Assembly: GCA_001899175.1 (NCBI GenBank)
Contig: MKVH01000024.1
Coordinates: 434,001-498,000, forward strand
From: Candidatus Kapaibacterium thiocyanatum
GTDB taxonomy: Bacteria; Bacteroidota; Ignavibacteria; Kapaibacteriales; Kapaibacteriaceae
DNA length: 64,000 bases
Reading direction: 5' to 3'
Part shown: in pieces, positions 15,462-41,328 of the stretch
How the letters are laid out: every line of letters starts with the position of its first letter
Numbering within the stretch: the stretch's first letter is position 1
Notes under the pieces: generated by a model
Database searches by the model: none
What the model saw: only the letters and a program-made list of their open reading frames with translations
Told to the model about the DNA's origin: nothing
Position numbers and translations under genes: made by a program

Positions 15462-17336
15462 ATGAACTTTGGTACTCAGCATAGCTGGCGTATGAGGATA
15501 GGGATGGTATGCACCATACTCGTCCTCGCCATCGGGATCGCCACCGCACAGGACAATGTCGGGATCGGCACTGCCACTCCTGACCCGTCTGCGTTGCTGG
15601 ATCTGAGCGCTACCAACAAGGGCTTGCTGATTCCCCGCGTGACCGTCGCCCAGCGCGATGCCATTTCCCTCCCGGCGACGGGACTGATGATCTACAATCT
15701 CGACCAGAAGGAATTCCAGTACAACAGCGGTATACCTTCCGCTCCCGTATGGCGGAGATTCATTTCCATTGGAACGGACGGTAACAGCGGTGATTTCTGG
15801 ACGTTGACGGGCAATGCCGGTACGGACCAGACGCGCCACTACCTCGGTACGCGCGACGCGGCGCCGCTCGTGATGAAGACGAACGACACGACGCGCCTCA
15901 CGATCTCTCCCCTCGGTATCATCACGGCCGATGGCCCCGTCAGGATCATGAAGACCATCGACCTCTCCGGTGCCACGGTGCCGTTCTGGCTCAATGGCCA
16001 GGCCGGTACGCAAGGTCAGGTGATGATTTCCAACGGTCCGCTCGCCACGCCTTCCTATACGAGCCGACTTTCCCTTCAGAGCATCACGACCGATACGCTG
16101 AATGCCGGAGTGACGAATATCTCCGGTCCGCTCACCGTCAACGGTCCTACGATCTTCAACGACACCGTCCGCTTCTCGATCTTCCCCAAGTTGCCGTTGC
16201 CGCACAACAACATGTTCGTGGGCAGTACGGCCGGCTATGCGGAATATCTTCCGCCGGGCGCCGACAGCTCGTTCCTTGGATTGTTCAACGGACGTCCGAC
16301 ATGGTTCAACCTGTCCAGCCTCATCCGCAGCCAGTCCTGGACCGTGGGTGGTAATACGACGCCGGGCAGTCCCATTATCGGCAACATGGCGACGTCGGGG
16401 ATCATGGATCTGGACGTACGTGCCGGTGGTCGCTCGCTCATCATGCTCAACGGTAGTTCGGGGCTCATTGACATCAAGGGACCGCTCAACCTGATGGGCA
16501 ATACCACGCCGCTCACGCTCAACGGCAATGCCGGTAACGAGGGAAGCGTCATGGTCAGCAAGGGTGTCGGCCAGACACCGGTATGGAGCGGCGCTCTTCT
16601 CGTTTCCGATACGAACATCATCATCTCGGCACCGAAGTTCACGACGTCGTCCACGACGACGACCACGCACTACGGTCCGACGATCTTTACGCAACTGCCG
16701 CAGATCCCGCTGCTGTCCGGCCACATTCTGGTGGGCAACAGCCAGGATATCGCCGTTCCGCTTCCTCCGGGAATCGACGGTGCTATGCTCCAGATCCAGC
16801 TCGGGCGCCCGATCTGGCAAAGTCCCGAGCGTGCCAACTACTGGTCCCGTGCCGGTAATACCGGCATCGGCCCCACGGATTATATCGGAACGACGGACGA
16901 CAACGATGTCCGCATCAGCACCAACGGTACCACGCGCGTGAATATCGCCCGTTCGACCGGTTCTGTCTCGATGACGTCGCTGTCCGGCGCACCGGTCATC
17001 GCACCTGTCGCATCGGATGACGGCCTGGTCGTCGCCACAGGTAACGGTACGCTCACGAAGCGCGACAAGAGTTCCGTTCTCGCCATGCTCGGCATCTATG
17101 GCGGTCGGTATCAGAACGGTACGGCTTCGCCCGAGTTCACGGTCGTCATCACGCTGCCGGCAGGATCCACGCTGGATCCGCAGGCCGCGATCTCCCTTAC
17201 TCCCGAAGCATCGTCGAGCGTGTCCGCCACTCCCTTCGTCGTGAACGGATCGCGGACGGCCACGACGTTCATCATCAACTTCCCGGGTGGACTCAATCCT
17301 GGTGAAGCCATCAACTGGATGGTGAAGAATCCCTGA
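15462..17336 (+). CDS. Exported surface protein, tail-fibre-like front domain
   Basis: About 624 residues from the ATG at 15462; ATG 15492 is an alternative that starts directly at the signal peptide (MRIGMVCTILVLAIGIATAQ). The start of the mature protein, DNVGIGTATPDPSALLDLSA followed by NKGLLIPR, is a pattern common in Bacteroidota surface and tail-fibre-like proteins. The rest is rich in Thr, Ser, Gly and Asn with recurring short blocks such as LTLNGNAGNEGSVMVS and PLLSGHILVGNSQ, suggesting beta-structure. No enzymatic motif and no T9SS C-terminal domain are visible. First gene of the surface-protein run; the next starts 2-65 bases downstream. Function unknown. Confidence 0.8.
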   Translation: MNFGTQHSWRMRIGMVCTILVLAIGIATAQDNVGIGTATPDPSALLDLSATNKGLLIPRVTVAQRDAISLPATGLMIYNLDQKEFQYNSGIPSAPVWRRFISIGTDGNSGDFWTLTGNAGTDQTRHYLGTRDAAPLVMKTNDTTRLTISPLGIITADGPVRIMKTIDLSGATVPFWLNGQAGTQGQVMISNGPLATPSYTSRLSLQSITTDTLNAGVTNISGPLTVNGPTIFNDTVRFSIFPKLPLPHNNMFVGSTAGYAEYLPPGADSSFLGLFNGRPTWFNLSSLIRSQSWTVGGNTTPGSPIIGNMATSGIMDLDVRAGGRSLIMLNGSSGLIDIKGPLNLMGNTTPLTLNGNAGNEGSVMVSKGVGQTPVWSGALLVSDTNIIISAPKFTTSSTTTTTHYGPTIFTQLPQIPLLSGHILVGNSQDIAVPLPPGIDGAMLQIQLGRPIWQSPERANYWSRAGNTGIGPTDYIGTTDDNDVRISTNGTTRVNIARSTGSVSMTSLSGAPVIAPVASDDGLVVATGNGTLTKRDKSSVLAMLGIYGGRYQNGTASPEFTVVITLPAGSTLDPQAAISLTPEASSSVSATPFVVNGSRTATTFIINFPGGLNPGEAINWMVKNP

Positions 17337-17401
17337 TCATGGACCTCAAGCACGTGTCACTACAATCAACCACATTACCCACTTTTGTCCGGAGTTCTTC
17401 A

Positions 17402-18247
17402 GTGAAGTTCTCTAATCTTCTCAAGGGACTCGCCGTTTCGGCCGTCCTGATCACTTGTGCCTCGGAAGCGTATGCACAGCTTCCCCTGCGTACCCGTTCG
17501 TTGCAGCTCATCGGTTCGACGAGCGGCACGCTGACCCACGAAGCAGCAGCAGCTACGACGTCCTATACACTGACGTGGCCCGCAGCAGGTGTTACGGCCG
17601 GAAACAACGGTTTCCTTCAGTCGGATCCGACCGGTGCCATGAGCTGGTTCCTCATCCCCACGGGTGAGCAACTCGTGACCGTCGACGCCAATGGTGCCGC
17701 TGGTCAAGTAGCCTACTTCACGGACAACAACTCGCTGACGTCCAGCCCCCGCTTCCAGTACGACAACGCCACGGCGAACATGACGCTGGGCGACAATGCA
17801 CAGAACGGTACGATCATCCTTGGTGACGGAGCATCGGCCAACACCGGTACGCTCAATGTGACGGGCCCCCTCACGGGCGCACGGAACTATACGCTGCCCG
17901 ATGCTTCGGGTACCATTCCCGTGACGACGAACATCCCGTCCGCCGGCACGGCGGGCTACATCCTCGTCGCCAACGCCGACGGTACGTCGACGTGGACGGT
18001 CAATCCTCTTGCCAACGTCGAACGTGGCGTGTTCACACCCACGGCCGGTGCCTACACGGCTGCCATTACGGTTACGGGTACGCCCGACCTGACGAACGAT
18101 GTCATTCTTGTGACGTCGTACGACACGGCGGGTGGTGGTCAGGTTCTCCAGGTTACGGGTGTCGCTGCCGGTACGATCACGGTCTCCGCTGCGGGTCCGT
18201 TCATCGGCACGGAGCGCATCTCGTGGATCTGGATTCCGATCCCCTAA
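17402..18247 (+). CDS. Exported beta-rich protein of the surface run
   Basis: 281 residues from GTG 17402, which has a GGAG Shine-Dalgarno-like box seven bases upstream and gives an ordinary signal peptide ending CASEAYAQ. An ATG at 17339 would add 21 residues and cannot be excluded. After cleavage the protein begins LPLRTRSLQLIGST, shared in form with the next gene (LPVRTRDLRLF), then a YTLTWPAAG motif found in all four repeat proteins downstream, and a YTLPDASGTIPV motif. It lacks the 15-residue repeat array, so it looks like a short version of the same front and back domains. Function unknown. Confidence 0.8.
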   Translation: MKFSNLLKGLAVSAVLITCASEAYAQLPLRTRSLQLIGSTSGTLTHEAAAATTSYTLTWPAAGVTAGNNGFLQSDPTGAMSWFLIPTGEQLVTVDANGAAGQVAYFTDNNSLTSSPRFQYDNATANMTLGDNAQNGTIILGDGASANTGTLNVTGPLTGARNYTLPDASGTIPVTTNIPSAGTAGYILVANADGTSTWTVNPLANVERGVFTPTAGAYTAAITVTGTPDLTNDVILVTSYDTAGGGQVLQVTGVAAGTITVSAAGPFIGTERISWIWIPIP

Positions 18248-18265
18248 TAGTAGTCTTCGAGTTGT

Positions 18266-18320
18266 CGGGGGAGTACCCCCGGCAGTCAGGGAAGAGAGGG
18301 CCTCGTTTCTCTTTCCTGAC
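18266..18320 (+). promoter_or_regulatory. Two adjacent hairpins inside the surface-protein run
   Basis: CGGGGG-AGTA-CCCCCG (18266-18281) is followed four bases later by a 13-bp stem, GTCAGGGAAGAGA / TCTCTTTCCTGAC with one G-U pair (18285-18320). They occupy the only sizeable gap (128 bases) inside the run. Neither is followed by a clear T-tract, so partial termination, RNA processing or mRNA stabilisation are possible (inference). Confidence 0.45.
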
Positions 18321-18375
18321 CGCCAGAACAGCATGGTAGGAACGCAAGAACGACTGCATCATCGGTTGACACTCA

Positions 18376-20682
18376 ATGAAACGAATGAACAATCATAGAA
18401 CCATCGTACGTATGATCGCGACAGCGGTCGTGGTGCTGGCATGCGCCGTGGAAGCGCATGCGCAGTTGCCGGTGCGTACCCGTGATCTGCGGTTGTTCAG
18501 CAACAACAACGTCAATTACGTCAGTCATACCGCCCCTAACGGTCTCCTGACGAATACCGTCTATACGTGGCCCACGGCCCTGCCCTCCACCAACGGCCAG
18601 GTCCTGTCCGGAACGACGGCAGGCCAGTTGAGCTGGATCAGCCTCGGAAACTTCTGGGCACTCGGCGGTAATTCGGTGCCGAGCGAACAGACGCTCGGTA
18701 CGACGTCGACCTTCGACCTCCCGATCATCACGAACAATGTCGAACGGATGCGGATCCTGTCGACGGGTGAAGTCGGCATCGGCGCTACGCCTGCCGCCGC
18801 ACGTCTTCTCGACGTGAACGGTACGGCGGGTACGGCGAACGTCCGTCTTCGCAGCACGGGCGGCGCAGCCATCGCAACGGTCTATACGCCGACGGCGAAC
18901 GACGGTATCATCGTCGCGGATGCGAACGGCGATCTCCTGAAGCGGAGCGTCGGTAGTGTGCTCGGCAGCACGGCATGGTTGCTCGGCGGTAACGCAGTTG
19001 CCAGCGTGCAGAACCTCGGTACGACGTCGGCATTCGCCTTGCCCATCATTACGAACAATGCTGAGCGGATGCGAATCCTGTCGACGGGTGAAGTCGGTAT
19101 CGGTACGCCGACGCCGACGACGAATGCCCGGCTGACGATCGCAACCATTCCCGCAACGGGTGGTCGTGGCATCGACGTCGACATGGCGTCCACCACGACG
19201 TCTTCCGGCCTCGTCGTTCGTGGCATCGGTGCTTCCGGAGCCAACGACGCCGGTATCCTCGTGGGAACGACGACAGCGGGTACGGGTATCGGTATGCGTA
19301 TGGGTACGGTTGCCGGCTTCAACGCGCCCGACCTCGGTATCGACATCCAGGCCGCATCGAACGGCGTCATCGTTACGCCGACGACGGCGGGTACGGGCAC
19401 GGCCTTCCGCGCTTCGACGAGTGCGGGTACGCGTGGTCGCAGGGCCTTCGAAGGATACGTCCGCGGTACGGCAGGTAACGTCGCCTATGGTCTGTCTTCG
19501 GACGCCAACGCCATCGCAGGTGGTACGGGCCTCGGTGCCTATCTCAGCACGAGCGGCACGACGGGTACGCTCTATCCTCTCGTCGTAGCGAGCGAGAACA
19601 ATCGCAACATCTATCTCGGTTCGACGACGGCCGACACGCCGGCCGATCTCGCAACGATCCTTACGGGCACGTCGAATCAGAGCACGACGTACATGTTCAA
19701 TGCACGTATGAGCGGCGGTGCAACGCTCGTCGGTTCCACCAGTGGTACCGTGACGTTCGTGGCACCGGCGACGATCGCTACGAGCCATACGTATACGATG
19801 CCGAGTGCGACCGGTACGGCCGGTCAGGTCCTGCGCATCGCAACCAGCCCCGCGCCTACGGCATCGGCCGCGACGCTGGAATGGGGAGCGGCAGCAGGCA
19901 GCGAGATATTCGAGGAAGTGACGGCAGGTCAGGGTAACGTCCGCCGCAAGCTCGCCTATACCAATGGTATAGCCGGAGCTCCCGTCGGACAGTATGCCAT
20001 CGATCTGCAGGCCGCACGTGGTGCTGCTACGCAGACGGCGAGCGGACAGTATTCCGCGCTCGTAGGTGGTAGCTCGAATACCGTGAGCGGTGCCTATGCC
20101 TTCATCGGCGCAGGCCTCTCGAACACGGCCAGCAACTCCTACGCCAGCGTTCTCGGCGGTCAGGCCAACAGCGTGTCCGGAACGCATGCCACCATCCTCG
20201 GTGGTCAGTCCAACACGGTGTCGGGCAATCATTCCATGGCCTTCGGCTATGGTGCAGCGGTAACGCAGAACAACACGATCGTCTTCAACCATCCGACCGT
20301 GGGAGCAGGAGCGACGCGTGTCGGTATCGGCAACAACAACCCCACGGTATCGCTCGATGTCGATGGTGGCGTCGTCATACGTCCGCCGGCTAACCTGGCC
20401 GTGACGGGTAACAACCAGACGGTGACGGTCGGCAATCGTTCCTACATCGTTCTCGATCCAGGTGGTGCCGACAGAACGGGGCTCGTCCTTTCGGCCGGTT
20501 CGAATGCAGGGCAGATCCTCATCCTGCGTATCCTCGAAACTGCAGGGAACTACATCCAGTTGCCGGATGCCGCGGGCAGCAACGTCAACCTGACGGGTAA
20601 CTGGACGGGTCGCGCCGACGACACCATCATGCTCATCTGGACCGGCGCGAACTGGGCGGAAACAAGTCGTTCGAACAACTAA
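18376..20682 (+). CDS. Exported repeat protein, YadA-head-like (5 repeats)
   Basis: 768 residues. The signal peptide ends VEAHAQ. The front domain contains LPVRTRDLRLF and VYTWPT, then duplicated blocks of about 120 residues (LGGNxVxSxQxLGTTS, MRILSTGEVGIG) that look like an internal duplication. Five copies of a 15-residue repeat (consensus TxSGxYAxxLGGxxN) lie at about residues 555-630, followed by an AFGYGAAVTQNNTIVF segment as in beta-roll adhesin heads. The C-terminus ends with DDTIMLIWTGANW...SRSNN, a motif shared with the next two genes. No YadA anchor or T9SS C-terminal domain is seen. Paralogue of the three genes downstream; probably a surface structure. Confidence 0.82.
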   Translation: MKRMNNHRTIVRMIATAVVVLACAVEAHAQLPVRTRDLRLFSNNNVNYVSHTAPNGLLTNTVYTWPTALPSTNGQVLSGTTAGQLSWISLGNFWALGGNSVPSEQTLGTTSTFDLPIITNNVERMRILSTGEVGIGATPAAARLLDVNGTAGTANVRLRSTGGAAIATVYTPTANDGIIVADANGDLLKRSVGSVLGSTAWLLGGNAVASVQNLGTTSAFALPIITNNAERMRILSTGEVGIGTPTPTTNARLTIATIPATGGRGIDVDMASTTTSSGLVVRGIGASGANDAGILVGTTTAGTGIGMRMGTVAGFNAPDLGIDIQAASNGVIVTPTTAGTGTAFRASTSAGTRGRRAFEGYVRGTAGNVAYGLSSDANAIAGGTGLGAYLSTSGTTGTLYPLVVASENNRNIYLGSTTADTPADLATILTGTSNQSTTYMFNARMSGGATLVGSTSGTVTFVAPATIATSHTYTMPSATGTAGQVLRIATSPAPTASAATLEWGAAAGSEIFEEVTAGQGNVRRKLAYTNGIAGAPVGQYAIDLQAARGAATQTASGQYSALVGGSSNTVSGAYAFIGAGLSNTASNSYASVLGGQANSVSGTHATILGGQSNTVSGNHSMAFGYGAAVTQNNTIVFNHPTVGAGATRVGIGNNNPTVSLDVDGGVVIRPPANLAVTGNNQTVTVGNRSYIVLDPGGADRTGLVLSAGSNAGQILILRILETAGNYIQLPDAAGSNVNLTGNWTGRADDTIMLIWTGANWAETSRSNN
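20035..20262 (+). repeat. 15-residue repeat array, 5 copies (protein-coding)
   Basis: About five in-frame units of 45 bases encode TxSGxYAxxxGGxxN within the 18376-20682 gene. This is the shortest of the four arrays in the run. Units are degenerate at the DNA level, so it is protein repetition rather than a DNA satellite. Confidence 0.8.
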
Positions 20683-20701
20683 AGGGAATGGAATCTGACG
20701 C

Positions 20702-22597
20702 ATGACCTCGCGCAGATCATATAGCTCCCTTCCATGGCTGCGGGGATTCTTCCTGGGTATGTGCATACATGCCGGGACCGCTCTGTGCGTCATGGCCCAG
20801 GACACGGACATCCGTACCTTCCAGAGTTTCCGTATCGAACGCGATGGCGGCGCACCCGCGAGCACGATTCTCTTTACGACTCCGACGACGGCGATCACGC
20901 CATACTCGCTGATATGGCCGTACGATCCTCCTACAGCAGGATCCGTTCTCGTCACCAATGGCAGTACGACTCCCTTCATCCTCTCTTGGTCCCTGCCGAC
21001 AGGCAGTCTGCTCGAAATCGAGTCGTCCGGGTCACGGAATCTGCGCCGGTCTTCGAGCACGCTCTCGCCGGGTTCTCCCGCCGGAGTTCCGGGCTATGTC
21101 GCCAACGACTTCCAGGCCGGCCGGACGAGCGCTTCCCAGACGGCCAGTGGCGATCGCTCGACGATTCTTGGCGGCGCCAGCAATACGGCGAGCGGGTCGA
21201 AAGCGGCAGTCGGTGGCGGCCTGGGCAACTCGGCGGGAAGCACGACGGACGTCGCAGTCGGTGGTACCGGCAACAGCGTCAACAGTAGCGAAGGCGGAAT
21301 CCTCGGCGGCACCAACAACACCGTCAGTAGTAACGACGGTACGATCATGGGTGGCAGCGGTAACAGCTCGTCATCCAACCGCGGCTTCATCGGCGGCGGT
21401 ACGGGAAATACGATGACGTCGAACCAGGCCTTCATCGGTGGTGGTTCGGGCAACAACAACACGGGCGATAATGCCGGCATCTTCGGCGGCTATCAGAACA
21501 CGGTCACCGGGACGCATGCCACGGCACTCGGCGGTATGAACAACACGGTGAACTCGACCAACCGTGCCACGCTCGCCGGTGGTGACAACAATAGCGCCAG
21601 CTCGAACTATTCGTTCGTCGGTGGCGGCAGTAGCAATACATCGTCGTCTTCGGGTACCGTCGTCTTCGGCGGCACGAACAACGGCGTGACCAATCAGTAC
21701 GGCACGATCATCGGCGGAGCATCCAACACCGTCTCGAACGGCTATGGTTTCATCGGTGGCGGGCAATCCAATACCGTCAGCGCCTTCGCTCGCGGATCGA
21801 TCTTCGGAGGTCAGTCCAATACGGCCGGCGCGGATAACGTGACGTTGCTCGGTGGACAGAATGGCAGCGTGACCGGTGCCGGAAGCGTCGTGATGGGCGG
21901 CCGGGTGCTGACGCTATCGGCGGCCGACCAGGCAGGCTTCAACGGAGCGAGCGTCACGACGTCCTTCGCTACCGCCAACGAATTCCTTGTCGCCAACGCC
22001 GACATCTGGATCGCGAACAACGACGGCACGCCTCGCGAAGCACGGCTCTTCGAGAACTACGGAACGAATGGAGCCTTTCCGGGTGCCAATACCAATTACG
22101 TAGCCTTCAACGCTCCGTCCGCCACGGCGAACGACTACGACAATACATATACGCTTCCCGATCGTACGGGGGCCGTCAGCGATCTGCTGACCATCGCTGC
22201 CACGCCTGCGCCGACGACGACCAGTGCGGCAACGACATGGGCCGCCGCTCCGATCAACTATCGCAGCTCGGCGACGACGATCATCCTGGATCTGACGACG
22301 ATCCTCGGCGTCGTCATGAACAACGTCGAATTCCTGCGCGTCACGTCCGACAACGTACCTGCCAACAGAAGGACGAGTCTGAGCAACGGGGTGACGAACG
22401 GCATGCTGCTCACGATGCGCGTCGTCTCGAATGCGCCGGGAACGAATCCGGATCGCGGTATCCGTTTGCGCGCGACGGACGCCAATCTGCGTCTGGCCGG
22501 GAATGCGGACTACGACATGCAGCAGGCCGATTCGATCATGCTCGTATGGGATGACGTCGATCAGATCTGGATCGAAGTAGGGAGAACGAATCAATGA
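20702..22597 (+). CDS. Exported repeat protein, YadA-head-like (about 17 repeats)
   Basis: 631 residues. N-terminal signal peptide (GFFLGMCIHAGTALCVMAQ), then a front domain with TFQSFRIERDGG and YSLIWP. A junction IEIESSGSRNLRR-type motif precedes about 17 tandem 15-residue repeats (about residues 145-400; xxSxxxxFIGGGxxN). After the array come a LTLSAADQAGFNG motif, a NEFLVANADIWIANN segment, a YTLPDRTGAV motif and the shared ending DSIMLVWDDVDQIW...RTN. The same architecture occurs in the next two genes. It starts 19 bases after the previous gene and its stop overlaps the next ATG. Likely an extended beta-roll surface fibre; how it is anchored is unknown. Confidence 0.83.
   Translation: MTSRRSYSSLPWLRGFFLGMCIHAGTALCVMAQDTDIRTFQSFRIERDGGAPASTILFTTPTTAITPYSLIWPYDPPTAGSVLVTNGSTTPFILSWSLPTGSLLEIESSGSRNLRRSSSTLSPGSPAGVPGYVANDFQAGRTSASQTASGDRSTILGGASNTASGSKAAVGGGLGNSAGSTTDVAVGGTGNSVNSSEGGILGGTNNTVSSNDGTIMGGSGNSSSSNRGFIGGGTGNTMTSNQAFIGGGSGNNNTGDNAGIFGGYQNTVTGTHATALGGMNNTVNSTNRATLAGGDNNSASSNYSFVGGGSSNTSSSSGTVVFGGTNNGVTNQYGTIIGGASNTVSNGYGFIGGGQSNTVSAFARGSIFGGQSNTAGADNVTLLGGQNGSVTGAGSVVMGGRVLTLSAADQAGFNGASVTTSFATANEFLVANADIWIANNDGTPREARLFENYGTNGAFPGANTNYVAFNAPSATANDYDNTYTLPDRTGAVSDLLTIAATPAPTTTSAATTWAAAPINYRSSATTIILDLTTILGVVMNNVEFLRVTSDNVPANRRTSLSNGVTNGMLLTMRVVSNAPGTNPDRGIRLRATDANLRLAGNADYDMQQADSIMLVWDDVDQIWIEVGRTNQ
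21137..21910 (+). repeat. 15-residue repeat array, about 17 copies (protein-coding)
   Basis: In-frame units of about 45 bases, each encoding a GG or GGG followed two residues later by Asn, e.g. FIGGGTGN then FIGGGSGN. Unit length drifts by one residue in a few copies. Matches the arrays at 23035 and 24881. Confidence 0.85.
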
Positions 22598-24474: not shown

Positions 24475-24494
24475 TGGTTCGAAGGGGCAACATC

Positions 24495-26159
24495 ATGAAG
24501 CGCTCCATACTCGTCTGCGCCACCGTCCTGACGACGGCGGCCGGCATGGCGACGGCACAGGTGTCCGAACAGACCGTGCAGACCCTGCGGGTGGAAGATC
24601 CTTCCAACCCGATGAATTCCATTCGTCTGCAACCTCCAACGGGCATTACGTCGTACGCCCTCACGTGGCCTGCGTCGCTCACAGCCGGTACATGGACGTT
24701 CGTGATCAACGGCTCGACCGGTACGATGAGCTGGGTCGATCCGACGACACTCGGTAACGGTCCCGTGGAAATCGCTTCGAGCGGTAACTATAACCTGCGC
24801 CGCGTTGCGGCCCTGAACAATATCGCCCCCACGGGTATTGGTCAGTATGCCAACGACTTTTCGGGATCGCGCAGTGCGGCCGGTCGGACGGCAACGGGGC
24901 AGTATTCCGCTATCCTCGGTGGAAACGACAATCTCGCGTCCGGTCAGTATTCCCTCGTCGTCGGTGGCAACAGCAACGGAGCGACGGGACAGTATTCTCT
25001 TGCCGTCGGTGGTAATTCCAATCTTGCATCCGCCCAGTATTCCCTCGTCGGTGGCGGGCAGTCGAATCAGGCGACGAATTCCTACGCGCTGGTTCTCGGC
25101 GGACAGTCGAACACTGCATCGGCGAATGCATCCGTCGTCGTCGGAGGCCAGTCCAACGCCAATTCGAGCAGCCTCGGCTTCATCGGTGGTGGCAACAACA
25201 ACACCTCGATCGGGAACAAGGCCATCATCGTCGGCGGTCAGAGCAATACCAATACGGCCAACATCGGCTTCCTCGGTGGTGGTGCCAGCAACAACGTTTC
25301 CGGAAACATCGCTGTCGTCGTCGGCGGCCAGAGCAATGCCGCGGCCGGCGATCGTGCCGCTGCCGTCGGTGGTCAGGGCAATAGTGCATCGGGCGGACTT
25401 TCGTTCGTCGGTGGCGGTGAAACCAATACGGCAGGAGCCAATTACTCGGCGGTACTCGGTGGCCAGAACAACGTCGCCAGCAGCCAGTATTCGTCCGTAT
25501 TGGGCGGACAGAACCTCACGTTGAGCGCGAACAACACCGCGGGCTTCAACAGTGGCTCGGCCATGACCATTTCCACGGCGAACACGGTCGCCTTCGGCAA
25601 CAACAACATCTGGCTCGCGAACAACAACAACACGGCCAGCGAGCTCCGCTTCTACGAACCGACGGCGACGACCGGTGCGTTTCCGCCGTCGGGCGTGAAC
25701 TATGCCGGATTCAAGGCGGCGCCGACGATGGCGGACGACAACACGTATACGCTGCCGGCTTCGGTCGGAAACGTGAACGACGTGCTCGTCATGGATACCA
25801 AGACCGGTAACAATGCGACCATGAAGTGGGCGTCGGTAGCAAACGTGCTCTCCGTGACCGGTTATCCGAGCGTGCAGGCCAACGTACCTGCCGCGACCGA
25901 CAACGTGACGCTCGATGCAGCACAGTACAGCGCCTTCTACATCCAGTCGGACAACGGTGTGGGCGGTGACGACGATATCCTGAGTATCATCAATCCTACG
26001 CCTGGTCAGGTCATCTACGTCTATTGGGCTAACGATACGCAGAACGACGTCACCATCGCGGGCATACCCTTCGTCGTGCCGAATGGTGCGGACGTCGGTG
26101 TGACGCTGATCTACCTCAACGGCGGATGGAGATGCGTGGGCTCGTTCGTGCAACCCTGA
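24495..26159 (+). CDS. Exported repeat protein, YadA-head-like (about 14 repeats)
   Basis: 554 residues from ATG 24495, chosen because GAAGGGG lies seven bases upstream and it opens an ordinary signal peptide (MKRSILVCATVLTTAAGMAT); ATG 24474 would add seven residues. The front domain has VQTLRVEDPSNP and YALTWPASL, the junction VEIASSGNYNLRRV, then about 14 repeats (about residues 130-340; e.g. LASGQYSLVVGGNSN). The back domain shares NIWLANNNNTASELRFYE and YTLPASVGNVNDVL with its paralogues, but the extreme C-terminus diverges (VTLIYLNGGWRCVG). The stop overlaps the next start. Confidence 0.83.
   Translation: MKRSILVCATVLTTAAGMATAQVSEQTVQTLRVEDPSNPMNSIRLQPPTGITSYALTWPASLTAGTWTFVINGSTGTMSWVDPTTLGNGPVEIASSGNYNLRRVAALNNIAPTGIGQYANDFSGSRSAAGRTATGQYSAILGGNDNLASGQYSLVVGGNSNGATGQYSLAVGGNSNLASAQYSLVGGGQSNQATNSYALVLGGQSNTASANASVVVGGQSNANSSSLGFIGGGNNNTSIGNKAIIVGGQSNTNTANIGFLGGGASNNVSGNIAVVVGGQSNAAAGDRAAAVGGQGNSASGGLSFVGGGETNTAGANYSAVLGGQNNVASSQYSSVLGGQNLTLSANNTAGFNSGSAMTISTANTVAFGNNNIWLANNNNTASELRFYEPTATTGAFPPSGVNYAGFKAAPTMADDNTYTLPASVGNVNDVLVMDTKTGNNATMKWASVANVLSVTGYPSVQANVPAATDNVTLDAAQYSAFYIQSDNGVGGDDDILSIINPTPGQVIYVYWANDTQNDVTIAGIPFVVPNGADVGVTLIYLNGGWRCVGSFVQP
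24881..25515 (+). repeat. 15-residue repeat array, about 14 copies (protein-coding)
   Basis: Units such as LASGQYSLVVGGNSN and GATGQYSLAVGGNSN in tandem, about 45 bases each, inside the 24495-26159 gene. Many units end in the identical GGQSN peptide. Confidence 0.85.
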
Positions 26160-26584
26160 TGAAGATGAAGCGCAACCATATCGAACTATCGACAACCCAT
26201 TACGTGGGTCTGGTGATCGCCATGGCGGTCTGTCTCGTCGTATTCGGGACCGGCAGCGTTTCTGCACAGACCCTGGTGACCAATGGCGCCACCATCCACA
26301 TCCGTGAGAATGCGCAGGTCGTGGTCAACGGCAATACGGAAATCCGTACGGGTGATGTCCGCGTCTACAATCAGGCCCGCGTGGAGTTCAGGGGCGACGT
26401 GAACGTGGTCCGCGGCGGACTCTACATGCTCCAGGACAGCTATGCGCGTGTCGTCCGGAATCTGGTCGTCGCCAACGACGGCATCGTGTGGCGTTACGCT
26501 CCGGGCTCGCTCGACGTGGAAGGTTCGATCTTCAATAGAGGCGAGTTGACGAACGACGGCGAAATCAACATCGGCAAACCGTGA
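26159..26584 (+). CDS. Small exported beta-helix-like protein
   Basis: 141 residues. A transmembrane-like signal (VGLVIAMAVCLVVFGTGSVS followed by AQ) is followed by about 95 residues of short alternating hydrophobic/polar strands (IHIRENAQVVVNGNTEIRTG, VEFRGDVNVVRGG), a pattern seen in right-handed beta-helix or bactofilin-like proteins. The ATG overlaps the stop of the repeat protein, and its stop overlaps the GTG of the next gene, so it is firmly part of this run. No family is recognised with certainty; it may be a short subunit or cap of the surface structure (inference). Confidence 0.7.
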   Translation: MKMKRNHIELSTTHYVGLVIAMAVCLVVFGTGSVSAQTLVTNGATIHIRENAQVVVNGNTEIRTGDVRVYNQARVEFRGDVNVVRGGLYMLQDSYARVVRNLVVANDGIVWRYAPGSLDVEGSIFNRGELTNDGEINIGKP

Positions 26585-28662
26585 ACCTGATCCGGCTACC
26601 ATATCGATCGTTCCTTCTCCTGCTTCTCGTGTTCTTCACGGGATTGGGAAGCCGCGTGCTTCAGGCACAACATCTCGAGAACGGTGCGACGGGTCGCGTG
26701 AAGAACAACGGAACCATCCGCTTCAAGTCCGACACGGGCAGGTACAAGAACGATGCGCTCTATTCATCCATCACCAACAACGTGATCGAATTCCAGGGCC
26801 GGACGAATCTCTTCACCGATCTTGGCGGAAGGACGGCGAATACCACCGTTCTTGGCCAGGACCGTAACTGGCGTGTGCCCGGCCTGGTACGGTATGCGAA
26901 GGCTGCGGACAATCAGTCCGTGCAGGCACGCTTCTATACCGATCTCGAAATGAAGGACGGAGCGACGAAGGACATTCCCGACAGCGTCCTCGTCGGCCGT
27001 GCCTACAGCATCGTCCTGAGCGGATCGCGTACCTATCACGGTACGTTCTACTACGACGGCACGCAGCCGCAGTTCATCACCGAAGAGCGTGGTCTCAGCG
27101 GCAACGTCAATCGCTACAACAATCTCTCGCTGCTGTTCAGTCCCAAGACCGTCGCCGATTCGTCGGAGGTACGGGTCGACAATCTCTTCGACAGCGATGT
27201 CCAATCTCCGCTCTTCGTTCTCGGTGACATGTACTGGGGTACGAAGAGCAATGCCCGCGCTCACGTGCGGATCAACGACGCGGGGCAGCTCGTGACGGGT
27301 TCCGATACGAGCCGTTTCCACGACAGCGCGACCGTGATCAACGGTACACTGCTCATGCCCGACAGGGCTGGAGTCGCCGTCGTCATGCCATCGTCCAGCC
27401 TCGCACTCGTCAACGATGGCCGTGCCATGCTGGTGATGGGAACGTCGACGCAGATGGACGTGCTCGGATCCTTCGTAAACAGACATGTACCTCTGACGAA
27501 CGTCCAGTTCGACACGTCGTCGCTCGTGAACTACGACGGCACGCAGCCGCAGATCATCCAGGCCACGGCATCGAGCAAGCCCTACGGATCGCTGCGTACC
27601 GCACGATCCGCCAAGACGGCATCGGGTGACGTCTTCATGGCGACGAACCTGAGCGTCAACGACACGAATGTCGTGATGCTGCCGTATACGCTGTCGATGA
27701 AGATCGGCACGGCTTCCTACACCAACAATGCCGAGGTCGTAGGCGCCCTGCGCCGCGAGCTGGCCGGTGGGGATACGGTGACGTTCTATCGTTACAACAA
27801 CGAAGAGACGGGCCTGCGGTTCAGCGAGATTCCGCGTGAACTCACGCTCGACGTACGCCCTCGTACGCGTCCCAATGCATTCGATCCCACGACCGACATC
27901 TTCCGCAAGATCACGGCACGATACGACGGTACCTGGCGTGCCCTCGTACGTGCCGGATACAAGGCCGACGATCTTCCTGGTACGTGGGCTCCCGAGTCCA
28001 GCGAGCGTCTGCTGAAGATGTACAATGCCTCGCCCTCGCCGAACGAAACGGCGACGAAGCTCACGCCGACGATACCGCCGACCTATCAGCGGCGCCCTCT
28101 CGCCCAGAGCACCGGTCTGGCCTACATCGAATTGTCGAACGTAAGCAGTAACGGTCCGGACAACTCCCGTGTGGACAATGGCAACGACATGCTGCTGCGC
28201 GGCAGCCGGGACGTCCTGCGTGCCATCGCGAGCGGACGCTGGAGCAATCCCTTCACGTGGGACGAAGCGCGTGAGCCCGAGCCCGTGGATCGCGTCGTGA
28301 TCGACGGCTTCACCGTCCATGCAGGCTACGTCCGCGCGAACGACAACTACGCCGTCCGCGAGAAGTATTCCGATTCGCTCGCTACGGAAGTCATGATCGG
28401 CGTCAAACCCAATTCGACGCTGCTCATCGGCAGGGAAGGGGCGTTCAACACGTTCTCGCTCGTGCCGACGTCGACCGTTCTCATGTACGTCAAGCGCCAG
28501 GCTCGGGCACTCGTGCCCATGCTGGCACAGGATACCTCGGCTGCCGATATCGACGGTGGTCTCGTCGTCTACCCTGGCGCCCTCCTTCTCGTACCGAACC
28601 TCACCGTCGAGACCGATGCCACGGTCTTCAACGCGGGCACGCTTCAGGTGGGACAGCCATGA
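26581..28662 (+). CDS. Large exported surface protein of unknown function
   Basis: 693 residues from GTG 26581, which overlaps the previous stop by four bases. Signal peptide: RSFLLLLLVFFTGLGSRVLQ then AQ. The mature N-terminus (LENGATGRVKNNGTIRFKS) resembles the preceding small protein, as if the same beta-helical module were extended. Two YDGTQPQ motifs, at about residues 157 and 319, suggest a repeated module often seen in Bacteroidota surface proteins. The C-terminal part has a second beta-helix-like stretch ending NAGTLQVGQP, again resembling the small protein's end (NDGEINIGKP). No clear T9SS domain. Confidence 0.75.
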   Translation: MNLIRLPYRSFLLLLLVFFTGLGSRVLQAQHLENGATGRVKNNGTIRFKSDTGRYKNDALYSSITNNVIEFQGRTNLFTDLGGRTANTTVLGQDRNWRVPGLVRYAKAADNQSVQARFYTDLEMKDGATKDIPDSVLVGRAYSIVLSGSRTYHGTFYYDGTQPQFITEERGLSGNVNRYNNLSLLFSPKTVADSSEVRVDNLFDSDVQSPLFVLGDMYWGTKSNARAHVRINDAGQLVTGSDTSRFHDSATVINGTLLMPDRAGVAVVMPSSSLALVNDGRAMLVMGTSTQMDVLGSFVNRHVPLTNVQFDTSSLVNYDGTQPQIIQATASSKPYGSLRTARSAKTASGDVFMATNLSVNDTNVVMLPYTLSMKIGTASYTNNAEVVGALRRELAGGDTVTFYRYNNEETGLRFSEIPRELTLDVRPRTRPNAFDPTTDIFRKITARYDGTWRALVRAGYKADDLPGTWAPESSERLLKMYNASPSPNETATKLTPTIPPTYQRRPLAQSTGLAYIELSNVSSNGPDNSRVDNGNDMLLRGSRDVLRAIASGRWSNPFTWDEAREPEPVDRVVIDGFTVHAGYVRANDNYAVREKYSDSLATEVMIGVKPNSTLLIGREGAFNTFSLVPTSTVLMYVKRQARALVPMLAQDTSAADIDGGLVVYPGALLLVPNLTVETDATVFNAGTLQVGQP

Positions 28663-30764
28663 TGCGACAACGATCATACGGTGTGTTGGCCGTGCTCGCC
28701 ATGCTTCTCGCAGGCGGTGTCGCGGCATATGCCCAGCAACCGAGTCTGCTCACCAGTCAAGGCAAGATCCATAACGTCGGTACCATCAAGGTATATGGCG
28801 ATGCTGCCCTGAAGCAGGACAGCATCGGTGGCATGGTGCAGTATCTCCGCAACCATGCCGCGGATACTCAGCTCGTGGCCCATACGACGTACGACAGCGT
28901 CTACTTCGAAGGACAGTCGAGGAAGATCCTGAAGGACGTGACGCGTCCGCTCGTGGCCGCCTCGCTCTTCAGCTCGGCGGATACGCTGACGGTCTTCGAC
29001 ATGGTCGCCGCGACGCACATCGAGGCGCACGGCCGCCTGATGCACGAAGGACTCATCAATCCGGGGCGCCGCGACGGCACCGTCATGGTGAATGGCGCCG
29101 CACGCCAGGAGATATCGGGCGAAGGTCTCGTTCCCGTTCTCGAAGTGGACAACGCGCAGGGCGTCGACGTGACGCGCGGTGGCGGACTCCGTATCGTGGA
29201 ACGCCTCGACCTTCAGGACGGACAAGTCCTCAATACGGCATCGGACAACCTCGCCATGCAGAGGGACGCATGGATCTGGCGCAGCGACAAGGGATCGATC
29301 GCCCAGGCACCGGGCACCGACCAGCGTCTGAACCTGCGATACTACGGTCTCGCTCTCACGCGCGGTGGTGCGGAGATGCTCCGTACGGCTACCGTACTCC
29401 AGAAACTTCATCAGGACAATCCGGGTGGCGTCGAGCTGCCGTGGGACGTCACGATCAACGACTCGCTCGTCCTGCGCGGACACATCTTCACCGAACTGGA
29501 TACTCCGACGGCCGTCAGCAGTGCGCTGCGATATACATCGGCCACGCTCGATCCCGTCTTCGTAGGACTGTGGCCGGAGATCAACGGCCGTATGGTCCGC
29601 ACCTCCCTCGTCCCGGGCCGCAGGATGGTCATGAACAGTACGCACAACTTCATCCGTTTCGAGCGCGATGCCGATATGGGAAGCGTTCGTATGGCGTCCG
29701 TGCGCGTGAAGCCGTCGACGGTTCCGCTGCCGACGAGCCAGGGCGTCGACAAGGTGCGCCGCTTCTATCAGATGGACTTCCAGGATGCAACGGGAATCAC
29801 GGTGCCGGACAGCACCTACGTTCTCGAATTCGGCTATGCGTGGCGTTCGGACAGCCTGCCGTCGGTCGAGAACGCCGGCGTTATCGAAACGATTCCCGCA
29901 CTCGTGATCAAGATCGATTCGCTCGCACTCGAACGCTTCATCGTGGACAAGTATGCGACGGACGGTATCTCGACCCTGCCCACGCAGAGCGACGACATCT
30001 GGCGCTACAGCTCGGCTCACGGCATCCGCAGCAGCGGTGACTTCGCCATCGGCCTGTCGTCCTTCGCGACGGTGTGGGTGATGCGCGCACGTGTCTATCT
30101 CGAAGGCGCCATGCGCTCGTATGCGGACAACCTCGCACCCGTCATGGCCACCGACCTGCGTCAGCGGAACCTCGTTCCCACGACGCCACCGAACGAGTAT
30201 CCTTATACGCTCGATCCACTGCGCTCGGCCATCGTTGTGCCCACGCTGCCCGATTCCATCGTGGACTGGATGATCGTCGAATTCCGTACGTCGATCTCGA
30301 GCTCGTCGGCCGTGCACTATCAGACGGCCCTGCTCACCAGGAACGGCTACGTCGTCGACCCCGTCACGTTCCTGCCCCTGCCCATACGCAGTATTCGTCC
30401 CGGCGACTACTACATCGTCTTCCGTCACAGGAATCACCTTGCCGTCATGACGCAGGACGCGGAAACCGTGGCGCCGAGCAACGTCAATCGTGCACTCGAC
30501 TTCACGACCGGTCTCGATCTCTTCGGTGGCGCGGCTTCGATGAAGCTGCTCGGTGTGGCGGACGGACGCCGCTGGTTCGGTATGGTGGCGGGGAACGTCG
30601 ATCACGACGACGACGTCCGTCGCATCGATCACAACCTGATCTGGGACAATCGCGACATCGAAGGCTTCTCGCTCTTCGATACGGATCTCGACGGCATCAT
30701 CAGTACGAAGGACTGGAACGTTTCCTGGAACAATCGCGGACGGAGCAGTGCGGTACCTCGTTAA
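28659..30764 (+). CDS. Large exported surface protein of unknown function
   Basis: 701 residues; starts ATGATG overlapping the previous stop by four bases. Signal peptide: YGVLAVLAMLLAGGVAAYAQ. The mature start (LLTSQGKIHNVGTIKVYGD) matches the style of the two preceding proteins (xxNxGTIxxxxD), so the three seem to share an N-terminal module. The C-terminal part contains a dockerin-like stretch (NVDHDDDVRRIDHNLIWDN and DTDLDGIISTKDWNVSWNN) with two calcium-loop-like Asp-rich segments. That could mediate calcium-dependent folding or a protein-protein contact. No T9SS C-terminal domain follows. Function unknown. Confidence 0.77.
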   Translation: MMRQRSYGVLAVLAMLLAGGVAAYAQQPSLLTSQGKIHNVGTIKVYGDAALKQDSIGGMVQYLRNHAADTQLVAHTTYDSVYFEGQSRKILKDVTRPLVAASLFSSADTLTVFDMVAATHIEAHGRLMHEGLINPGRRDGTVMVNGAARQEISGEGLVPVLEVDNAQGVDVTRGGGLRIVERLDLQDGQVLNTASDNLAMQRDAWIWRSDKGSIAQAPGTDQRLNLRYYGLALTRGGAEMLRTATVLQKLHQDNPGGVELPWDVTINDSLVLRGHIFTELDTPTAVSSALRYTSATLDPVFVGLWPEINGRMVRTSLVPGRRMVMNSTHNFIRFERDADMGSVRMASVRVKPSTVPLPTSQGVDKVRRFYQMDFQDATGITVPDSTYVLEFGYAWRSDSLPSVENAGVIETIPALVIKIDSLALERFIVDKYATDGISTLPTQSDDIWRYSSAHGIRSSGDFAIGLSSFATVWVMRARVYLEGAMRSYADNLAPVMATDLRQRNLVPTTPPNEYPYTLDPLRSAIVVPTLPDSIVDWMIVEFRTSISSSSAVHYQTALLTRNGYVVDPVTFLPLPIRSIRPGDYYIVFRHRNHLAVMTQDAETVAPSNVNRALDFTTGLDLFGGAASMKLLGVADGRRWFGMVAGNVDHDDDVRRIDHNLIWDNRDIEGFSLFDTDLDGIISTKDWNVSWNNRGRSSAVPR

Positions 30765-32052
30765 CATCGTGCTCATCGTCGTCATGGGACTCTGCGCCTC
30801 GTCCGTGCTGCATGCACAGACGGACGCCGACGTGATGCTGTACGTACAACAGGATCCGCGTCCGGACACGGCCACGTTCGACATCTGGCTGAAGCGTACG
30901 AGCCTGCGCTGGGAACATTGGGCCAACGGTACGTTCCGCATCGACGTTTCGGATCTCATGATGACGGGTGGACTGAATCCTGCCGTACATACCGTGCGCC
31001 TCATGCCTGGTACGACGGGATTGACTCCGCTCGTGCCATATGCACCGGCCGGTATGGACGGCTACGCCATCGTGCCACGGATCATGAACGGCAGGGTGAG
31101 CATCGTCGTACATGGCCCCGATTCGGTCGGCAATGCCTTCCGTATCACCCGTCTCGGCGATTCCATCCGCATCGGCAGATTCGAACTCGCGAGCACGAAC
31201 GGATCCTTCCTGAGCGATAGTCTCATCGCCTTCACGCAGCCCGAACCGTACTTCCAGGCCAATGCCTTCAAGCTCGACCACGACAGTATCACGGGTTCGG
31301 GTGCGCAACGCAACGTATGGTATGCCACGCACGACAACGTGGAGATGAATTCGCGCTGGCACAGCGCACCTCCTCCGCCGGATACGTGTAATACGAGGGC
31401 GGTGCTGGCAGGACAGTACGATGGGGATCTCACGGTAGGGCTCTCGTTCAGGACGGAGGACGAGCATTGCTTCCGTGGCTACTACATCGAACGGGCCTTC
31501 GTCGACAGACGCGATCCTGCGAACCTGGCGTTCGAATCGCGTCCGAGCCTCACGTATCTGAGTGATGGCCGGTTCCTGTCCTGCGTCTGCCTCACTGGCA
31601 GTACGCACGGGAACTTCACGGACGTGGTCGAATACCGTCGTGAGACCTACGCCTATCGACTCGTCGGCGTCTACGTGCGCGATACGGCGATGGTGGCCTA
31701 TCTCGATACGATCTTCGTCCGCGTACCCAACGCCATCATCTCGAATGCCGCACTGCTCGAGAACCCGTTCAAGGACAGGACCATCGTGCAGTTCAATGCT
31801 GACGACCGCCTCCGCCTCACGGCCTCGGCCTACGATCTCGGTGGGAAGCTGATCGGTTATCTCCTCGACGAACAGGGGAATCCGATCGTCGACAAGGAAT
31901 ATCCCAAGGGAGCCTTCTACAAGGCACGGTTCGAGGCGTCCGCCGTAGCCTCGCAAGGACTCTACAACCTCGTCCTCGTGGCCACGCCGTACGACGATAC
32001 GGCGCTCGGTGAGAGCAGCAGGGCGATACTCAAGGCACAACTACTGCGATGA
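30748..32052 (+). CDS. Exported protein with probable T9SS-type C-terminal domain
   Basis: 434 residues from GTG 30748, overlapping the previous gene by 17 bases, with a CGGAGC box just upstream. A signal peptide ends SSVLHAQ. The body is beta-rich without recognised motifs. Near residue 200-240 are isolated cysteines (DTCNTRAV, EDEHCFRGY) that might form disulfides. The last ~100 residues (NAALLENPFKDRTIVQFNAD, AYDLGGKLIGYLLDEQG, SQGLYNLVLV) look like a T9SS type A sorting domain, the only one in this run. It might be secreted separately or tether the other products (inference). Confidence 0.78.
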   Translation: MRYLVNIVLIVVMGLCASSVLHAQTDADVMLYVQQDPRPDTATFDIWLKRTSLRWEHWANGTFRIDVSDLMMTGGLNPAVHTVRLMPGTTGLTPLVPYAPAGMDGYAIVPRIMNGRVSIVVHGPDSVGNAFRITRLGDSIRIGRFELASTNGSFLSDSLIAFTQPEPYFQANAFKLDHDSITGSGAQRNVWYATHDNVEMNSRWHSAPPPPDTCNTRAVLAGQYDGDLTVGLSFRTEDEHCFRGYYIERAFVDRRDPANLAFESRPSLTYLSDGRFLSCVCLTGSTHGNFTDVVEYRRETYAYRLVGVYVRDTAMVAYLDTIFVRVPNAIISNAALLENPFKDRTIVQFNADDRLRLTASAYDLGGKLIGYLLDEQGNPIVDKEYPKGAFYKARFEASAVASQGLYNLVLVATPYDDTALGESSRAILKAQLLR

Positions 32053-32876
32053 TGACGAACCGCGACCATATCGTCCGTGTCCTCCTCGTCGTCATCGTCG
32101 CCATCGCGGCGTCCGTTACTTCCGTGGCACAGCTCGTCAATACGGGCAACATCGACGAAGTGCAGATTCCGCCCGACACCTTCCATGTCGAGCACGAATA
32201 CTGGATCGGCGGCTATGCATCGGCCCTGCTCATGATGAACTTCGGAGACCTCACGGTATCCTATCGTGGCAGCATGGTGCCGGGTGCGTCGCCGGAATCG
32301 GTGAAGACGACGGGTGGCTTCGGCTACGGTGCTGCACTCGGAGCGGTCTTCAGCTACCTGCCGCGCAGGGAGTCGTACGGTCTGTCGTTCATGGCAGGCC
32401 TCGACTATCGCTGGACGAAGAGCGAATCGGCCGTGCCGGAGCACGACGGAGTCAATACGTTCAACGCGACATTCGAGACGAATGCGAAGATTCTCTATCT
32501 GTCGGCTTCGCTGAACGGTCTTTATCGTGTGGGTTCCCGCGGAGCGTATCTCACCATCGGGGCAACGGTGGACATGCCGATGAGCGGCAACGAGATCGTC
32601 CTCTGGCAGCACGAGCAATCGACGGGCACAGCGCCGGGCGAAACGCCCGGTGCACCGAACACGAGTATCAAGTATCGCACGACGACGGACTTCCGTCCGC
32701 GCGTCGGCCTGCAGATCGGGGCGGGACATGACTTCCTGGCCGGTCTGTTCGGTTATCGACGGCAACTGGTGACGCCGTACGTGTCGATACAGGCGGCGAC
32801 ACCGATGGTGTCGACGCCTACTGCATGGAATTCGATCGCCGTACGCCTGGGCTTGATGTGGCGTACGGGATTCTAG
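32049..32876 (+). CDS. Outer-membrane beta-barrel protein
   Basis: 275 residues. Signal peptide: VRVLLVVIVAIAASVTSVAQ. The mature protein has alternating amphipathic strands (GFGYGAALGAVFSYLP, YGLSFMAGLDYRWTK, AYLTIGATVDMPM) and ends in an aromatic-rich strand with terminal phenylalanine (LGLMWRTGF), the usual recognition signal for BAM-dependent barrel insertion. Overlaps the previous gene by four bases and is the last gene before the terminator. Its place suggests it anchors or exports the repeat proteins, which lack an anchor of their own; this is a hypothesis only. Confidence 0.82.
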   Translation: MMTNRDHIVRVLLVVIVAIAASVTSVAQLVNTGNIDEVQIPPDTFHVEHEYWIGGYASALLMMNFGDLTVSYRGSMVPGASPESVKTTGGFGYGAALGAVFSYLPRRESYGLSFMAGLDYRWTKSESAVPEHDGVNTFNATFETNAKILYLSASLNGLYRVGSRGAYLTIGATVDMPMSGNEIVLWQHEQSTGTAPGETPGAPNTSIKYRTTTDFRPRVGLQIGAGHDFLAGLFGYRRQLVTPYVSIQAATPMVSTPTAWNSIAVRLGLMWRTGF

Positions 32877-40552: not shown

Positions 40553-41328
40553 AGCCGGTCATAGGTCTGTTGTCGGCGATATGCCTTCTTGTCTGTGCGG
40601 GCATCGGAAGCCTCCGTGCCCAGGGATTCGACTGGCAGTACAGTGCGCGGTTTCCGAGCACGAGCCCGATCCGCTTCATCGGCGCCGAGATCGCCAGCGG
40701 ATACACGATGCATAGTGGAAGTCTGCCGTACCTGGCGAAGGATCTGGGCTTCACGTGCTGTACCTACGAGAACGGTACGGGGCTCCCTCTCGCCCTCGGT
40801 ATCACCGGCGACTACTGGGTAGCGGGTGATTGGGCTCTTGCGGGGACGCTCGGTTATCGTGCGCAGAACGCCTCGTTTAATGCGAAAAGCGACCCGCTTC
40901 CGCTTGCCGACGGACGGATCTTCCAGACGGAATACATCTACGCCAGCACCCTGCACTATGCGGCGGTCTCCGTCGGTGCCAGGTATCGATTGCTCGGTAC
41001 GCACATCACCGTCGGTGGTGGAATACGCGGGATGCTTCTCCTCGGTACGTCCGCCACGCATACGGAGCGCATCCTTTCGCCCGACGACCGGTACTTCAAC
41101 GGCAATCCGCCGAGCAAGGAAATCGTGCACGACACACGTGGTCTGCCGGACGCACAGCGGCTGATGGTGGTTCCCTACGTACAACTCGGATACGACATCA
41201 GCATTTCACGCGGTGTCTATCTGTCACCGACGCTCACGCTCGGGCTTCCCCTTATGAGCGTATCCAGCGATGCCACGTGGCGTATGACCGACGTCGGAAT
41301 CGGCGTCAGACTTCTTCGCGGATTCTGA
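40549..41328 (+). CDS. Outer-membrane beta-barrel protein
   Basis: 259 residues. Signal peptide: GLLSAICLLVCAGIGSLRAQ. The body shows amphipathic beta-strands (WALAGTLGYRAQNASF, AVSVGARYRLL, ITVGGGIRGMLLLG, GVYLSPTLTLGLPL) and a final strand ending in phenylalanine (VGIGVRLLRGF). Overlaps the T9SS protein by four bases and may work with it at the outer membrane (inference). Two adjacent cysteines (FTCCTYENG) are unusual for a barrel loop. It converges on the following minus-strand gene with only eight bases between. Confidence 0.8.
   Translation: MKPVIGLLSAICLLVCAGIGSLRAQGFDWQYSARFPSTSPIRFIGAEIASGYTMHSGSLPYLAKDLGFTCCTYENGTGLPLALGITGDYWVAGDWALAGTLGYRAQNASFNAKSDPLPLADGRIFQTEYIYASTLHYAAVSVGARYRLLGTHITVGGGIRGMLLLGTSATHTERILSPDDRYFNGNPPSKEIVHDTRGLPDAQRLMVVPYVQLGYDISISRGVYLSPTLTLGLPLMSVSSDATWRMTDVGIGVRLLRGF

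Follow-up and report, generated by a model that had tools for sequence, protein, structure and literature searches.

Export through the type IX secretion system (T9SS) is understood to require a C-terminal sorting domain (CTD) on the substrate. The genomes considered here encode exported proteins without a CTD, and a gene pair that tethers such proteins, or takes them along during export, would, if real, explain part of this gap. A candidate pair, g9 and g10, lies in a run of eleven genes (g1 to g11) in a 64,000-nucleotide stretch of DNA (the window) from Candidatus Kapaibacterium thiocyanatum. In the NCBI taxonomy, Kapaibacterium is placed in the Bacteroidota, order Eximiradiales; "Kapaibacteria" denotes the order here, and f1 the family of the window genome (3.27 Mb, 28 contigs, 99.4% complete). 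Among described systems, that of Ca. Stygibacter is similar in that a CTD-anchored cohesin scaffoldin was inferred to hold dockerin enzymes, which carry signal peptides, at the cell surface (PMC8542988). There, the cohesins are arranged in tandem in a scaffold of 3755 residues and the cargo consists of enzymes, whereas the present locus has one private pair of neighboring genes, putative fiber and beta-helix cargo, and domains that are recognized by fold or loops only. Cellulosomal cohesin-dockerin pairs have in common with it the fold of the g10 N-terminal domain and the two-loop pattern of g9, but here the sequences fall under the family cut-offs and there are no enzymes. Type B CTD adhesins form complexes with PorP-like barrels and PorE, and a static anchoring was proposed in which a T9SS substrate, a partner barrel, and a peptidoglycan-binding OmpA-like part are co-encoded (PMC9143113; PMC12618676). 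The present locus has comparable parts; however, the barrel protein g11 is not PorP/SprF by profile, the CTD of g10 is type A-like (PF18962, PorU), the barrel and OmpA domain of its relatives form one protein, and the fiber is encoded separately and lacks a CTD. Trimeric autotransporters (YadA, UspA1, and BpaC) share the beta-roll head repeats, but the cluster differs in having no membrane anchor domain, another back domain, and a multi-gene base. CTD-anchored cohesin-dockerin display has thus been inferred before, but not in the form of a compact module of neighboring genes carrying a fiber. Among the titles and abstracts listed from a mostly open-access literature on Kapabacteria with T9SS or adhesins, trimeric autotransporters, cohesin-dockerin systems, and piggyback T9SS export, none dealt with this gene pair or cluster, and none showed surface work on Kapaibacteria.

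The best explanation of the cluster, which we would give an even chance of being correct, is that it encodes one cell-surface appendage, with g10 held through the T9SS, g9 docked to it, g8 and g7 as a stalk, g1 to g6 as fibers, and g11 as a brace. The cluster itself is real and conserved; a surface fiber is likely, and a docking base formed by g9 and g10 is moderately supported. From the observed co-conservation, shared open reading frames (ORFs), gene pairing, and genomic T9SS, and from domains assigned by profile or model, we infer contact between g9 and g10, stacking, trimers, an order of parts, a surface location, and an exit of the CTD-less proteins from the periplasm. The proposed chain would run from the outer membrane and g10, through g9, g8, and g7, to the variable fibers g1 to g6. 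After export by the T9SS, the CTD of g10 would retain the protein at the outer membrane, probably with help from the OmpA-type barrel g11, and the cohesin-like domain of g10 would capture the dockerin-like tail of g9, as in a plug and socket of which only the socket, g10, has a CTD. The open beta-helical ends of g8 and g7 would allow these proteins to stack onto g9, and g1 to g6, presumably trimeric and resembling YadA heads or phage fibers, would form the distal fiber or adhesive tips, so that the gene order would run from tip to base. If correct, this gives Kapaibacteria a defined surface appendage and places YadA-type heads outside type V secretion; the docking idea is reducible to two small domains.

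The structure of g10 (30748..32052) was predicted with AlphaFold2 from 19 sequences, with a mean pLDDT of 87. Residues 25-207 of the model matched 6kgc_A, 6kgd_A, 4fl4_L, and 3kcp_A (Z 9.4-10.3, root-mean-square deviation (rmsd) 3.1-3.3, 132-135 residues), which were the only listed PDB entries with matches restricted to this region. The titles of all four name cohesin-dockerin or scaffoldin complexes, the matched chains of which we read as the cohesins, and the domain has, on the predicted model, the fold of a cohesin. Residues 214-328 are fibronectin type III (FN3)-like. The region 328-434 matched the CTD of PorU (Foldseek top match, E 3.2e-8; Z 9.5, 18% identity), PF18962 was found in 3 of 19 g10 orthologs, and hhalign aligned this CTD with 12 CTDs of its own genome with a probability of 96%. 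A custom CTD hidden Markov model (HMM) was positive for eight of the twelve f1 g10 ORFs and for none of 94 other cluster ORFs. Fold, orthologs, and hhalign support a type A-like C-terminal sorting domain, although the window copy itself falls below threshold. The genome encodes SprA and contains 102 CTD matches at E≤0.01; Pfam listed no T9SS domain for g1 to g9 at E≤1, and a CTD is supported only for g10, as the original prediction of a single T9SS-domain protein in the run had stated.

The g9 protein (28659..30764) has a beta-helix-like front, and its last 220 residues form a conserved module with two terminal loops, the dockerin-like tail comprising residues about 586-701. The dockerin calcium-loop pattern was canonical in the last loop of all 25 orthologs and in the first loop of ten. 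Searches of the PDB with a profile of the tail returned 5lxv_B, which we take to be a dockerin, as the best match (E 0.071), and the nine matches included the named dockerins 8ajy_B (E 0.29) and 5k39_B (E 0.64). Outside the order, the tail at locus L180 was matched by Pfam Dockerin_1 with an E-value of 6.7e-4 (20.2 bits versus a cut-off of 22.9). The loop patterns and weak profiles thus point to a dockerin-like tail. In the studied genome, the g9 tail and the g10 N-terminal domain are each present in a single copy.

The two genes also occur together. Full-length g10 was detected in 26 of the 33 sampled order genomes (the G013 copy is cut by the contig), and all 33 genomes are concordant, with both the g9 tail and g10 present in 26 and neither in seven. 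The g9 gene stands directly upstream of g10 at 25 of 26 order loci, the exception being L127. This pairing bears on the possibility that the CTD-less proteins constitute a free or periplasmic matrix, undocked and either kept in the periplasm or released, with g10 alone on the surface. Such a matrix is compatible with the lack of a sorting domain in g1 to g9; however, the strict pairing with a CTD protein and the shared ORFs described below speak against it, as do the YadA-type heads and phage-fiber-like modules, which are known from extracellular proteins, and we consider it rather unlikely. Under the docking explanation, the simplest way for the CTD-less proteins to leave the periplasm might be to be carried along, already folded, with g10, which is speculation. 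T9SS cargo crosses in the folded state (PMC9251779), which would allow g9 and g10 to pass together as a single complex. Alternatively, g9 might exit by another route and be caught outside.

The g9 tail was detected in 52 of 395 genomes of the phylum, 26 of which lie outside the order. There, the listed g10 matches start no earlier than about residue 188 of 444, and thus cover FN3 and CTD. The 46 strongest of the 67 listed tail places outside the order, from 22 of the 26 genomes, were examined. At all 46 loci, the custom HMM found no CTD in the tail ORF, in which 0-62 residues follow the tail; the next gene carries a CTD at 25 loci, in 23 cases within 125 bases, in 16 of the 22 genomes. This rate is far above chance (binomial) at assumed base rates of 3.5-10%, the loci being non-independent. 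The other 21 loci are without a detected CTD neighbor: there is no nearby ORF of at least 120 residues at L184, L192, L196, L198, L199, L201, and L213; the neighbor has a similar start by eye at L181 and L182 (truncated where the stretch ends), L187, and L220; and a different neighbor is found at L189, L194, L202, L203, L207, L210, L211, L216, L217, and L222. At L176 and L178-L180, the neighbors consist of a signal-peptide-like start, an unassigned N-terminal domain, and a CTD above the PF18962 cut-off. Comparison of the N-terminal domains of partner genes outside the order with that of g10 by hhalign gave an E-value of 0.0017 and a probability of just 15%, and the best PDB match of their profile was 2vo8_A (E 0.13), from a record titled exo-alpha-sialidase, which we take to be a cohesin module; Pfam detected no cohesin in the partner domains outside the order. 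These hints, each weak, agree with the fold of g10. The pattern of tail genes and CTD neighbors points to a widespread module of two genes that docks CTD-less proteins. It is possible, if rather doubtful, that g9-g10 exemplifies a two-partner T9SS module found across the phylum: a CTD-less, dockerin-tailed secreted protein, encoded beside a small cohesin-like/FN3/CTD receptor, would assemble with the receptor in the periplasm, be carried folded through the T9SS pore, and be displayed without its own sorting signal. In that case, the base of the trimeric-fiber appendage of Kapaibacteria would derive from such a module. Genome G112 has two dockerin-tail genes in tandem (L194, L205); one of them begins, by eye, like a partner gene, which might allow docked proteins to form chains.

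The main evidence that g7 (26159..26584, or from 26165), g8 (26581..28662), and g9 act end to end comes from shared ORFs. In five genomes, which belong to two families, a single ORF contains parts of both g8 and g9. In the f7 genomes G036 and G043, a single ORF comprises nearly complete g8 and g9; in the f9 genomes G030, G038, and G045, the ORF combines about 540 g8-like residues with the last third of g9, preceded in G045 by a g7-like part. The order of the parts in every shared ORF is that of the operon. ORFs orthologous to g7 were found in nine f1 loci and none was seen in L046 and L053. Both g7, a small exported protein, and g8, a beta-helix-like protein by eye and the stalk candidate, have NxGxIxxG ends, which by eye are compatible with stacked, open beta-helices; the N-terminal xNxGxI module announced for three proteins was likewise recognized by eye, in g7, g8, and g9.

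Several observations weigh against the docking and stalk assignments. Neither PF00963 nor any other sequence profile tried linked the g10 N-terminal domain to cohesins, and the domain is therefore called cohesin-like, from its fold. The dockerin family profile (PF00404) did not identify the g9 tail either: Dockerin_1 gave nothing in the studied genome at E≤1 and weakly matched just six of the 25 tails (best E 0.014), and the first calcium loop is degenerate in 15 of the 25 orthologs. The CTD of the window g10 was missed by both PF18962 and the custom HMM. In f9, the shared ORF contains just a part of g8 and the final third of g9; rather than a fusion, it may therefore reflect a domain swap between related beta-helix proteins. 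Finally, fiber genes were seen beside the base in f1, f3, f9, and one f2 genome, but at none of the loci seen in f4, f6, f7, and the rest of f2.

The fiber proteins g3 to g6 are defined by [GA]GxxN motifs that are followed by another 14-16 residues on. Such spaced motifs number 3 in g3 (18376..20682), 15 in g4 (20702..22597), 17 in g5 (22594..24474), and 13 in g6 (24474..26159, or from 24495), compared with maxima of 1, 1, 2, and 1 in 1000 shuffles of each, and none occurs in the seven other genes. Repeats and front and back domains common to four genes had been predicted; the repeat arrays are present in all four, but that of g3 is short, with just three spaced motifs, and the tail of g6 is, by alignment, unlike the back domains of g3 to g5. 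The g4 protein was aligned with g5. In Pfam, g3 approached Phage_depo_C, to which its back domain is near (E 1.5e-4, 22.6 bits versus a cut-off of 25), and LbR_Ice_bind (E 6.8e-5, 23.3 bits versus 30). A profile of g5-like proteins matched UspA1 (E 4.8e-27) and an ice-recrystallization protein (E 8.9e-10) in the PDB. Prediction of g5 as a monomer, which had been proposed as a check, gave a beta-roll with block pLDDT of 82-96 over about residues 161-390. VIA-align placed the head of the trimeric autotransporter BpaC first (Z 19.8, 308 residues, rmsd 10.9, 26% identity), and Foldseek alone returned nothing at E≤0.001. The whole single-chain model has a mean pLDDT of 69 with poor ends, so the front and back domains are merely suggestive; the back domain matches 6o38_C (Z 7.2) and, weakly, a tailspike, which we leave uninterpreted. 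The left-handed beta-roll head repeats of trimeric autotransporters (type Vc) are, therefore, present, but the C-terminal YadA membrane anchor of that type was not found by Pfam, with no match at E≤1 in g1 to g10 and none at E≤5 in g11. Of the two other genes assigned to the fiber, g1 (15462..17336) encodes an exported protein with a phage-fiber-like VGIGT...KGLLIPR start (by eye) and its own C-terminal domain; Pfam lists no family for this protein. It is retained in f1 loci, and its N-terminal part matches a long fiber gene of family f3. The short, exported g2 (17339..18247) carries the front domain (YTLxWP). The phage-fiber-like modules raised the possibility of a prophage, which was rejected on four grounds: the signal-peptide-like starts of all 11 genes, the flanking of the run by conserved housekeeping genes in most f1 loci, the absence of PHROGs matches for g1 to g10 at E≤0.1, and the absence of tblastn matches at 1e-5 when g5 was searched against 50,697 phage records, although the low-complexity filter may have masked repeats in this search.

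The terminal barrel, g11 (32049..32876), is a protein of about 270 residues in f1 that was assigned to its outer-membrane barrel family through relatives: of the 21 members of alignment A4, six have PF13568 barrel matches. In eight members, all from other families, an OmpA domain (PF00691, best E 9.7e-20) follows the barrel; it is absent from the window g11 and the f1 copies in this alignment, and g11 at L142 also runs into an OmpA domain. Because the barrel of relatives continues into this peptidoglycan-binding domain, an anchor role appears likelier than an exporter role; of the two functions originally offered for the barrel, it is plausibly part of the anchor, and the export function is disfavored by the eight orthologs. 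One could still suppose that g11 itself exports or anchors a trimeric-autotransporter-like fiber. The closeness of g3 to g6 to trimeric-autotransporter heads and the position of g11 as the last gene of the run in f1 would suit this; however, its relatives are OmpA-fused barrels, which is an anchor layout, and g11 is retained beside g8 to g10 even where no fiber gene was seen, as at L141, which makes this explanation unlikely. Anchoring of the PorP/SprF kind was rejected, since PF11751 has no match in the genome at E≤10.

The run occupies 15462-32876 of the window, and its eleven ORFs are all on the + strand, as had been predicted. A hydrophobic N-terminal stretch with an x-A-Q type site was recognized in all eleven proteins by pattern match, without a signal-peptide predictor, in keeping with the claim that all are exported. 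The junctions were described as mostly 4-base overlaps; these were found at only four of ten (g4/g5, g7/g8, g8/g9, and g10/g11), with two 1-base overlaps, an overlap of 17 bases at g9/g10, and gaps of 2, 19, and 128 bases at the remaining three, taking 24474 as the start of g6 and 26159 as that of g7. No Pfam family scored above its own cut-off in any of the eleven proteins.

Within f1, the run recurs at loci L040-L053 as far as the contigs reach, with g8 to g11 colinear and single. The number of fiber genes between g2 and g7 varies from locus to locus: complete runs contain four in the window, two in L041, three in L042, four in L043, two in L047, and one in L052, and the cut runs of L040 and L046 contain at least seven and at least six. 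The repeat proteins are thus the variable part, and the g9-g10 pair is the most conserved part. Upstream, the SOD, LON-domain, and SpoIIE genes are retained in L041, L047, L051, and L052, three of which also keep pth; downstream, a kinase gene was found in L040-L042, L044, L045, L048, L049, and L053, and nuoM in L047, L049, L050, and L053. The run is flanked by other genes in L043 and L046. The cluster is not universal in f1, since a g11 match at E≤0.001 is missing in seven f1 genomes of genus group g3 (first sample) and, likewise, in genomes G013 and G015 of genus group g5.

Families f2, f3, f4, f6, f9, and f10 of the order also have g8, g9, and g10, mostly with g11; f7 keeps g10 with no adjoining g11. 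A g11-type gene follows g10 directly at 15 of the 26 order loci and after one further gene at five; the sequence ends after g10 at L113 and L124, and no g11 was seen in G032 and three f7 loci. A fiber gene precedes g8 to g10 in f3, f9, and one f2 genome. The original prediction had named an absence of conserved gene order in relatives among the grounds for abandoning it; since the order is conserved in f1, and the base g8-g9-g10, mostly with g11, across the order, these grounds do not apply. Its proposal of one undescribed surface fiber or matrix is borne out as regards a co-conserved assembly, proteins exported by their starts, and YadA-head-like fibers without a YadA anchor, but it missed the conserved g9-g10 base. 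Among f6 and the remaining f2 loci, the place of the fiber genes upstream of g8 is occupied by a giant ORF of 2946-3194 residues at L138:10160-19000, L142:9415-18999, and L145:9941-19000, which ends in NxGxIxIG (xNxGxIxIG), as g7 and g8 do. At the f2 locus L056 (8081-9988), a gene for a WD40-repeat protein that carries a T9SS CTD lies between g10 and g11. At the f9 locus L061 (3063-3743), a 226-residue protein follows directly after a CTD-less fiber gene; by eye, it consists of a front-domain-like part, a coiled coil, and a CTD-like end, and it has no Pfam match.

The genes downstream of g11 raise the question of whether the cluster is a surface-sensing unit, in which g10 would signal to a neighboring kinase in a manner somewhat like that of PorA and PorXY. 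At f2, f6, and f9 loci, g11 is followed by a response regulator and a CHASE-PAS-HisKA kinase, in f3 by a CHASE-PAS kinase, and in the window by a TPR histidine kinase. The CTD protein PorA acts upstream of PorXY in P. gingivalis (PMC7712824). The window kinase, however, is on the opposite strand and of a different build, and sensing would leave the docking pair and the fiber genes unexplained, so that we regard this function as very improbable. The loci at which the response regulator and CHASE-PAS kinase were seen after g11 are L056, L138, L139, L142-L145, and L147, the L056 pair being confirmed by Pfam. Six kb past g11, the region 38264-41328 (+) of the window includes a gene for a 762-residue protein that has Hydin/ASH-type Ig domains and matches a T9SS CTD. 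Its cohesin match scored 24.5 bits in the genome search and 21.3 in the protein scan, with a cut-off of 24.1, and the gene after it has a weak outer-membrane protein barrel match, which would make a second cohesin/CTD and barrel pair.

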